Part shown: piece by piece, positions 15,375 to 16,844 of the stretch
Layout of the letters: every line of letters starts with the position of its first letter
Numbering within the stretch: position 1 is the stretch's first letter
Assembly (NCBI GenBank): GCA_947632385.1
Contig: CANRPD010000001.1
Location: 1-64,000, forward strand
DNA from: an uncultured Clostridia bacterium
Lineage (GTDB): Bacteria; Bacillota; Clostridia; Oscillospirales; Acutalibacteraceae
DNA length: 64,000 nt
Direction of reading: 5' to 3'
Notes under the pieces: model-generated
Database searches by the model: none
Told to the model about the DNA's origin: nothing
What the model saw: only the letters and a program-made list of their open reading frames with translations
Translations under genes and position numbers: made by a program

Positions 15375-15400
15375 ACGAGGACCGAAGAGACGAGAACCAA

Positions 15401-15428
15401 GGGGCGCCCCAGCGGGCGCTCCTTTTTT
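15401..15428 (+). terminator. Rho-independent terminator after the mrp-like gene
   Basis: GGGGCGCCC-cagc-GGGCGCTCC followed by TTTTTT. Confidence 0.8.
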
Positions 15429-15464
15429 GCGTAAAAAATTTTTTAAAAAATTTATAAAAAAGAC

Positions 15465-15493
15465 TTGACAAATTCATAAACCAGCGGTACAAT
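15465..15493 (+). promoter_or_regulatory. Promoter of small protein gene 1
   Basis: TTGACA - 17 nt - TACAAT, with AT-rich UP-like stretch (ttttaaaaaatttataaaaaagac). Confidence 0.85.
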
Positions 15494-15561
15494 ACAGGGG
15501 TCAACCGAGGACAGGCGGGAGGACCCGCCCAGACAGAATGGCAGAAGGAGCGTGAATCACG

Positions 15562-15657
15562 ATGCGCAACAATTCGGTATTTGCCCTGGTGATGCACAAG
15601 GGCGCCAATGCTTTGGAGCGGCTGGCCCAGGTGGCCCTGGCCAAAGGAAGCCTGTAA
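15562..15657 (+). CDS. 31-aa small protein, copy 1 (MRNNSVFALVMHKGANALERLAQVALAKGSL)
   Basis: ATG..TAA with AAGGAG RBS and own promoter. Paralogue at 15772 differs by many synonymous changes and one conservative codon change. Confidence 0.82.
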   Translation: MRNNSVFALVMHKGANALERLAQVALAKGSL

Positions 15658-15692
15658 AGGCGAAAACTCGTTAAAGAATTTATAAAAAACGC

Positions 15693-15721
15693 TTGACAAA
15701 TTCATAAACCAATGGTAGAAT
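15693..15721 (+). promoter_or_regulatory. Promoter of small protein gene 2
   Basis: TTGACA - 17 nt - TAGAAT. Shares CTTGACAAATTCATAAACCA with the first promoter. Confidence 0.85.
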
Positions 15722-15771
15722 GAAGGCGTGAAGCGCGGACAAGTAGACGGAAAAAAGGAGCGTGGATCTCG

Positions 15772-15867
15772 ATGAAAAACAATTCCGTGTTTGCCCTGGT
15801 GATGCACAAGGGCGCAAATGCTTTGGAACGGCTGGCCCAGGTGGCCTTGGCCAAGGGGAGCCTGTAA
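15772..15867 (+). CDS. 31-aa small protein, copy 2 (MKNNSVFALVMHKGANALERLAQVALAKGSL)
   Basis: ATG..TAA, RBS AAAAGGAG, own promoter, paralogue of 15562-15657. Confidence 0.82.
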   Translation: MKNNSVFALVMHKGANALERLAQVALAKGSL

Positions 15868-15902
15868 AATCCGGCGTACTCGATTTCTCATCTTCCCATA
15901 GC

Positions 15903-15931
15903 AGAGAGGGGCGGCTGCGGCCGCCTCTTTC
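15903..15931 (+). terminator. Terminator hairpin after the small protein pair
   Basis: AGAGGGGCGGC-tgcg-GCCGCCTCTTT. Confidence 0.65.
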
Positions 15932-15946
15932 TTCGTTTTGGGGACG

Positions 15947-15975
15947 TTGACGGCCGGGGAGGGGTGTGGTACAAT
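15947..15975 (+). promoter_or_regulatory. Promoter upstream of the Nif3-like gene
   Basis: TTGACG - 17 nt - TACAAT. Confidence 0.65.
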
Positions 15976-16004
15976 GGGACAAACAGACAAAGGCGGTGCG
16001 TCGA

Positions 16005-16844
16005 ATGACGATCCGAGCGATTTTGGAGATGATCGAGGCCCGGCACCCCCGGTTCCAGGCGGGGAACCCCACCTGCGACGGGGTGATCGTGGGGGACGTG
16101 GAGCGGGAATGCACCGGGGTGGCGGTCACCTGCTCCCCTAGCGTGGCGGTGATCCGGGAGGCGGCCCGGCGGGGGTACAACCTGCTGCTGTGCCACGAGC
16201 CCACCTTTTATGACGGCATGGACGAGACGGAGTGGCTGACCGGCGACCCGGTGTATGTGGAGAAGGCCGCGCTGCTGCGGGAGACGGGGATGACGGTGTA
16301 CCGCGACCACGACCACCTGCACAGCGACGTTCCCGACGGGATCTTTTCCCGGGTCACCCGGGCGCTGGGCTGGGAGGACTATCGGGTGGAGAACCCCGAC
16401 CTGCCCGCAGGCTTTTTTGTGCTGCCGCCCACCACGGTGGGGGACATCGCCCGGCGGTACTGTGAGGCGGCGCATATCGACGGGCTGCGGCTGGTGGGGG
16501 ACCCGGAGATGCCGGTGGAGCGGGCGGCGTTTTTGTTCCACTTCAGCGGCGGACCGCTGGACCGGGAGCTGCTGCGCACCGTGGAAAAATGGGACGTGGA
16601 GGTGATCCTCACCGGGGAGACGGTGGACTGGACCGTGGTGGCCTATGTGCAGGACGCCCTGGCCCTAGGCAGGAAGCGGGCGCTGGTGACCCCCGGGCAC
16701 TACAACTGGGAGGAGCCGGGCATGGAGGGGCTGGCCGGGGAGCTGGCACAGGCGCTGGCGGGCCGGGCGCCGGTGGCGTTTCTCCAGTCCGGGAACCAGT
16801 ACCGCTGGGTGGCCGGAGAACGGGAAGGGGAAAAAAGCCCTTGA
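16005..16844 (+). CDS. Nif3-like dinuclear metal center hexameric protein
   Basis: MTIRAILEMIEARHPRF...; 'NLLLCHEPTFYDGMD', 'VYRDHDHLHSD', 'TPGHYNWEEPGMEGLAGEL'. Confidence 0.75.
   Translation: MTIRAILEMIEARHPRFQAGNPTCDGVIVGDVERECTGVAVTCSPSVAVIREAARRGYNLLLCHEPTFYDGMDETEWLTGDPVYVEKAALLRETGMTVYRDHDHLHSDVPDGIFSRVTRALGWEDYRVENPDLPAGFFVLPPTTVGDIARRYCEAAHIDGLRLVGDPEMPVERAAFLFHFSGGPLDRELLRTVEKWDVEVILTGETVDWTVVAYVQDALALGRKRALVTPGHYNWEEPGMEGLAGELAQALAGRAPVAFLQSGNQYRWVAGEREGEKSP

Follow-up and report, generated by a model that had tools for sequence, protein, structure and literature searches.

A tandem pair of 31-codon genes as the probable minimal version of a genus-specific, autoregulated LacI-family regulon

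Two near-identical 31-codon genes in a 64,000-nucleotide stretch of DNA from an uncultured Clostridia bacterium (the window) most probably represent, in this species, the minimal form of a LacI regulon that is autoregulated, specific to the genus and directed mainly at tiny helical proteins encoded in tandem. On the reading that we consider likely, the pair is translated into an intracellular helical 31-mer and is repressed by a dedicated LacI-type regulator, as a reduced form of the regulon found in the rest of the genus. Four kinds of sequence evidence underlie this reading: coding constraint on the peptide, boxes shared by the two promoters, co-occurrence of these promoters with the regulator, and boxes in front of the regulator's own gene. 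The dedicated regulator is the strongest clue, and it was missed by the sequence-only reading with which the analysis began. Most tiny bacterial proteins are unapproachable, since the conditions of their production cannot be predicted. In the present case a regulator, a DNA box of defined sequence and arrays in at least 15 sister species together make function testable. If the reading is true, the repressor would also be an unusual member of the LacI type, with no canonical hinge, an operator without a central CG and tiny proteins as its main target.

The two genes form a self-contained unit between flanking genes. Copy 1 (MRNNSVFALVMHKGANALERLAQVALAKGSL; 15562-15657, plus strand, 31 codons) and copy 2 (MKNNSVFALVMHKGANALERLAQVALAKGSL; 15772-15867, plus strand, 31 codons) are each preceded by an AAGGAG ribosome-binding site 11 nt before the ATG (15545-15550 and 15755-15760, respectively, both on the plus strand) and by a promoter of their own, TTGACA-17-TACAAT at 15465-15493 (plus strand) for copy 1 and TTGACA-17-TAGAAT at 15693-15721 (plus strand) for copy 2. 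A promoter scan of the region returned both of these, each with 11 of 12 matches, together with the promoter of the downstream nif3 gene, against a mean of 0.3 in shuffled sequence. All of these elements, including coordinates and translations, are as the sequence-only reading had first described them. Upstream, an intrinsic terminator at 15399-15424 (plus strand) ends the mrp/NUBPL-type ATPase gene; downstream, a second at 15903-15932 (plus strand) ends the pair, and the DUF34/NIF3 gene that follows has its own promoter. The order is thus terminator, promoter-gene, promoter-gene, terminator, and because the pair lies between these two terminators it is not the leader of a neighboring gene. 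The flanking genes themselves were considered as a clue and set aside: none of the 7 loci of the genus that were examined has mrp next to nif3, so that the position is uninformative.

The pattern of differences between the two copies argues that the 31-residue peptide is itself the selected product. Of the 96 positions of the gene, 10 are not identical in the two copies: seven codons carry a synonymous single-base change, and at codon 2 CGC is replaced by AAA, which yields the only amino-acid difference (R2K). When the same substitutions were placed randomly in the gene, a mean of 6.45 residues changed, and one or fewer changed in none of 20,000 trials (P ≤ 5e-5). We take the peptide to be under selection because ten base changes alter a single residue when about 6.5 would be altered by random placement, and the earlier proposal of selection on the peptide, made from the nearly all synonymous differences and the sole R2K change, is borne out by this randomization. 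Among the six frames, the annotated one has the fewest changes: across the 116 nt that align, 4 residues are altered, 1 of these inside the gene. The next best, a minus-strand frame that shares its third positions with the annotated frame, has 6 changes over the same stretch. The sequence-only reading had also named, as a test, homologues with dN/dS below 1 in related genomes; no orthologues were found, and the comparison applies to the two paralogous copies only.

The peptide belongs to no recognized family, as had been stated at the outset. Pfam and NCBIfam gave nothing above cut-off, and there was no convincing homologue in 29 genomes of the genus, 300 of the family or 396 of the order, or in phages and plasmids. 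Weak matches, for example to the C-terminal end of long open reading frames in two genomes (G217 and G306), lie inside longer frames and were rejected as chance. A single Pelagibacteraceae stretch in genome contigs matches the back-translated peptide pattern, which is about the number that we estimate for chance (0.5). A structure model made with no alignment gives a single helix over residues 3-28 (pLDDT 82.7). The peptide has a charge of +3 and a hydrophobic moment (muH) of 0.48, and no transmembrane stretch, the best 19-residue mean hydropathy being 0.71. The suggestion of an amphipathic helix therefore holds in part: one helix is predicted and the peptide is positively charged, and the fit to an amphipathic pattern is only moderate.

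Beyond their hexamers, both promoters of the pair share a two-box element, TTTATAAA-N14-TTCATAAA (15451-15480 and 15679-15708). In each, a TTTATAAA box that we predict to be bound by the regulator lies upstream of the -35 element (15451-15458 and 15679-15686, plus strand), and a second box, TTCATAAA, lies in the spacer between -35 and -10 (15473-15480 and 15701-15708, plus strand). By chance, the window as a whole should contain about 0.08 TTTATAAA boxes, and TTTATAAA-N(4-6)-TTGACA occurs nowhere in it besides these two promoters. A fixed-spacing promoter pattern proved too strict and a variable-gap pattern was adopted. In the 1.96-Mb genome from which the window comes, TTTATAAA-N(2-15)-TTYATAAA is found at exactly three sites, namely the two promoters of the pair and the front of a LacI-family regulator gene; the reversed pattern, used as a control, is found at none. 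This count is of two-box sites as distinct from single boxes, and on this basis the regulator probably has no two-box targets in the genome other than its own gene and the pair.

The same promoter type recurs across the genus and mostly precedes small-protein genes. In a sample of one genome per species that covers about half of the known species, we count 20 places with the pattern TTTATAAA-N(4-6)-TTGACA-NNN-TYATAA, spread over 16 of 29 genomes of the genus, and no match to its reversed control in any genome. The two window promoters fit this pattern, and with 15 promoters of small-protein arrays they make up the 17 of 20 places that precede small-protein genes. All 15 array promoters have exactly TTGACA-17-TATAAT. 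When the 328 TTGACA-like sites of the window are scored on 65 conserved array-promoter columns, promoter 1 ranks first (41/65) and promoter 2 second (35/65), the latter by a slight margin as the next site reaches 34. Across 300 genomes from 135 genera of the family, the promoter pattern is found at only two places outside the genus (in G098 and G274), both inside apparent open coding sequence and hence discarded. The spacer sequence TTGACAAATTCATAAACC also has more matches in the genus than its reversed control, several of them in promoters of other small genes. The remaining three box-promoters lie before a short leader with a terminator-like hairpin that lies between regulator and array (G305 C48:22011; L054:941, reverse strand) and, by eye, before an apparent amino-acid ABC transporter permease gene (L069:776; G308 C398) and an apparent pyridoxamine-oxidase-like gene (L067:442; G323 C20).

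The regulator gene of the window's own genome lies outside the window (contig C5, 17659-18720). Its product carries a LacI helix-turn-helix (PF00356, 1.7e-06) and a periplasmic-binding-like sensor domain (PF13377, 1.6e-35) of the sugar/nucleoside-binding type, and solved LacI-family repressors are among its matches. Orthologues, at roughly 46-100% identity depending on the alignment (53% for the copy of the window's own genome), are present in 18 of the 29 genomes of the genus: all 16 with the box-promoter, the window's included, plus G300 and G324. They form one clade with 100/100 support that contains the copy from the window's genome, and their recognition helix, SPATISLVLNNKPG, is nearly invariant. 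G300 does have an array, found by profile at a contig edge. In the near-complete genome G324 (L159, C14) the regulator gene has its two boxes, yet the search turned up no array, and this is possibly another reduced form. One genome without an orthologue (G316, 84% complete) encodes weak array-like proteins (E 1.7e-5) at a contig end. The nesting of box-promoter genomes within orthologue genomes has a hypergeometric probability of 2e-6, a value that ignores phylogeny and treats as independent genomes that are not, and part of the co-occurrence is inheritance within the clade.

Upstream DNA could be read for 17 orthologues, and in every one two exact TTTATAAA boxes stand just before the start codon, 8-12 bp apart and positioned around and just after the -10 element; eight more distant paralogous LacI regulators of the genus have no TTTATAAA boxes. 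In eight species the array directly follows the regulator gene in the same orientation, seven of these cases coming from neighborhood analysis and the eighth (G304) from coordinates. The canonical hinge motif PNxxAxxL is present in none of the 18 orthologues, and in its place is a variable linker of 21-34 residues. A variable box spacing of 8-12 bp is unusual for a LacI dimer, and a flexible linker would fit flexible box spacing. In the raw values for 17 species, taken with no phylogenetic correction, linkers of 21-23 residues go with a box offset of 8 bp and the longest (29-34) with one of 11 bp.

In 15 sister species the box-promoter precedes tandem arrays, mostly of 2-5 genes, that encode mostly basic proteins of 47-63 aa. 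These proteins are hydrophilic, charged and soluble-looking; they match no Pfam or NCBIfam family, and none were found in viral contigs, phages or plasmids. Their C-terminal ends are of several types, FERFAGEFADTHVSYQNINGFILP-like, YLNVNGYVMSVRLPY-like and CYVNVNGIAAPVCR-like, with YERFMQEKADVFQVT..K.QAMFW and ADYLANYAVVKGGLSPFQNGFFVA as further types. One array protein, modeled from a 36-sequence alignment, is predicted to have a helix at residues 3-38 followed by a hairpin with strands at 43-48 and 51-56, at modest confidence (pLDDT 71.8, pTM 0.37), and a structure search with this model gave nothing below E 5. More array-like proteins lie at contig ends (L126 in G304 C36; L125 in G316 C185), and array sizes in these draft genomes are therefore underestimates. 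Relatives of the array proteins are also scattered one by one elsewhere in G125, G217, G313 and G307 (L118, L119, L120, L121, L123), with no box-promoter visible near them in the stretches read.

The window pair shares with the arrays its promoter type, its tandem layout, small helical proteins with MKN/MSK-type starts and a core that resembles A-x-x-[LFY]-[ED]-R-[LF]; the GANALERLA stretch of the peptide, for instance, resembles the QATAFERFA core of array proteins. The differences are in size and parts. Array proteins have 47-63 aa and usually one promoter per array, whereas the window has one promoter for each 31-aa gene, and the C-terminal beta hairpin predicted in the modeled array protein has no counterpart in the peptide, which is predicted to be helix (3-28) only. 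An array profile gives the 31-mer 6.4 bits, placing the two copies at ranks 2-3 of 1002 sequences (the two copies plus 1000 shuffles), with one of the 1000 shuffles equal to them, and a whole-genome search with the profile (E ≤ 1) does not recover the 31-mer. Common descent of the 31-mer and the array proteins is thus possible, and the sequence resemblance is only suggestive of it.

We weighed four other explanations for the pair. The frame might be incidental to a small RNA, or belong to a dual-function RNA: the predicted transcripts are short and lie between terminators, and in G305 a similar promoter leads into a short stretch with a terminator-like hairpin and no convincing gene. We rate this as the least probable of the four. 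Against it, the substitutions follow the reading frame, ribosome-binding sites are kept in both copies and no Rfam family matches the window. Nor do we favor a type I toxin pair silenced by antisense RNA, of the kind that E. coli has at its Ldr (long direct repeat) and Ibs/Sib loci; we rate it as highly improbable. Whole promoter-gene units are indeed duplicated in tandem and encode a small, cationic, helical peptide, but a consensus scan of 15380-16010 reveals no minus-strand promoter, the peptide lacks a transmembrane stretch, the boxes of the pair's promoters are common to the gene of a protein regulator, and in sister species this promoter serves array proteins of a hydrophilic, charged kind.

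Much the same properties bear on a third explanation, in which the two copies make a secreted peptide, be it a leaderless bacteriocin or another that acts on membranes or as a signal. The direct neighbors of the pair, the NUBPL-type ATPase and DUF34/NIF3 genes, include no adjacent transporter or immunity gene; there is no evident secretion signal, and the array proteins of sister species look like soluble helix-plus-hairpin proteins. We consider it very unlikely even in light of the charge, moderate amphipathicity and duplication of the peptide, which would suit such a role. No more and no less likely is that the TTTATAAA boxes are simply AT-rich UP-element sequence, the link to LacI coincidental and the pair constitutive. 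Strong promoters often have AT-rich upstream DNA, and one box at the pair does lie upstream of -35. The other box of the pair is in the -35/-10 spacer, however, and those of the regulator gene are around or after -10, where UP elements do not act. Against coincidence also stand the exact count of three two-box sites in 1.96 Mb, the orthologue in every box-promoter genome and the paralogous LacI genes without boxes. The roles that the sequence-only reading had listed were guesses, and of these a membrane toxin or membrane-active peptide is not favored, while a small regulator could still be the right description.

Returning to the pair as the reduced LacI regulon, we propose the following mechanism. 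The regulator is predicted to bind TTTATAAA-type boxes. At its own gene, with boxes around and just after -10, it would repress itself; at the pair, with boxes upstream of -35 and in the -35/-10 spacer, bound regulator would exclude RNA polymerase from promoters that are near consensus and would be very strong when unbound. An effector that binds the sugar/nucleoside-type sensor domain would then end repression, and both copies would be strongly expressed. The regulator and promoter would have the same part in sister species, where they would control arrays of 2-5 different, mostly basic proteins of 47-63 aa, probably built of a long helix and a beta hairpin, with the window pair as a reduced, helix-only version. 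Regulation of the pair through the shared boxes is strongly supported by the sequences. We infer binding of the boxes, ligand induction, and repression rather than activation, the last favored because of where the boxes lie at the pair and at the regulator gene. The peptide itself may act by binding an intracellular partner, either a protein or a nucleic acid, and duplication would raise its dose. Such binding is favored over membrane attack by the hydrophilic, charged nature of the array proteins and by the lack of a transmembrane stretch in the peptide. This role, suggested by charge, size and predicted helix, is the weakest step of the proposal. As to the wider claim, that these elements make up an undescribed, genus-restricted system in which a hingeless, flexible-linker LacI repressor acts at variably spaced TTTATAAA boxes, diverging tandem tiny proteins that keep a helical core are its main output and the effectors of a new metabolite-sensing response, and the duplicated 31-residue helix of the window is the minimal case, we see roughly even chances.

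Set against known LacI-family regulons, this one is likewise local and, by prediction, autoregulated, and it departs from them in operator, hinge and targets. In a survey of such regulons, operators are palindromic and 16-22 nt long; the CG pair at their center is reported for 1173 of 1303 regulators, a minority lacking it, autoregulation is given as 72%, and the usual targets are carbohydrate utilization genes (PMC4052901). Like the local, autoregulated regulons of that survey, the present one combines a LacI helix-turn-helix with a periplasmic-binding-like sensor domain and has predicted boxes at its own promoter and few targets, and in eight species regulator and array are adjacent. Unlike the surveyed operators, the TTTATAAA repeats stand in a register of 8-12 bp or about 20-22 bp with no central CG, and the targets are unnamed tiny proteins; unlike usual LacI regulators, the present one has the variable linker of 21-34 residues instead of the PNxxAxxL hinge. 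The literature searched yielded no description of a LacI operator of the TTTATAAA type.

Two E. coli systems offer parallels for the pair itself. The Ldr and Ibs-Sib type I toxin-antitoxin loci consist of tandem, near-identical units that each encode a tiny peptide. The tandem tiny-peptide units are common to both, and the pair differs in having no antisense promoter found, no transmembrane helix and a protein regulator instead. SgrT is a small regulator protein tied to a sugar response and encoded within a regulatory RNA. Like SgrT, the pair would provide a tiny soluble protein under plausible metabolite-linked control, here through a LacI-type sensor; unlike it, no transporter partner has been identified for the pair, and no sequence likeness to SgrT is shown. 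A last observation concerns the DNA in front of the regulator gene. In the window's own genome, a candidate TPP riboswitch lies upstream of it on the opposite strand, in divergent orientation (contig C5; L158:6407-6528), and scores 49.6 bits against an Rfam cut-off of 54.3 (E 8e-9). By eye, a THI-like sequence is seen at the same place in G323, G324, G282, G125, G307 and G302.
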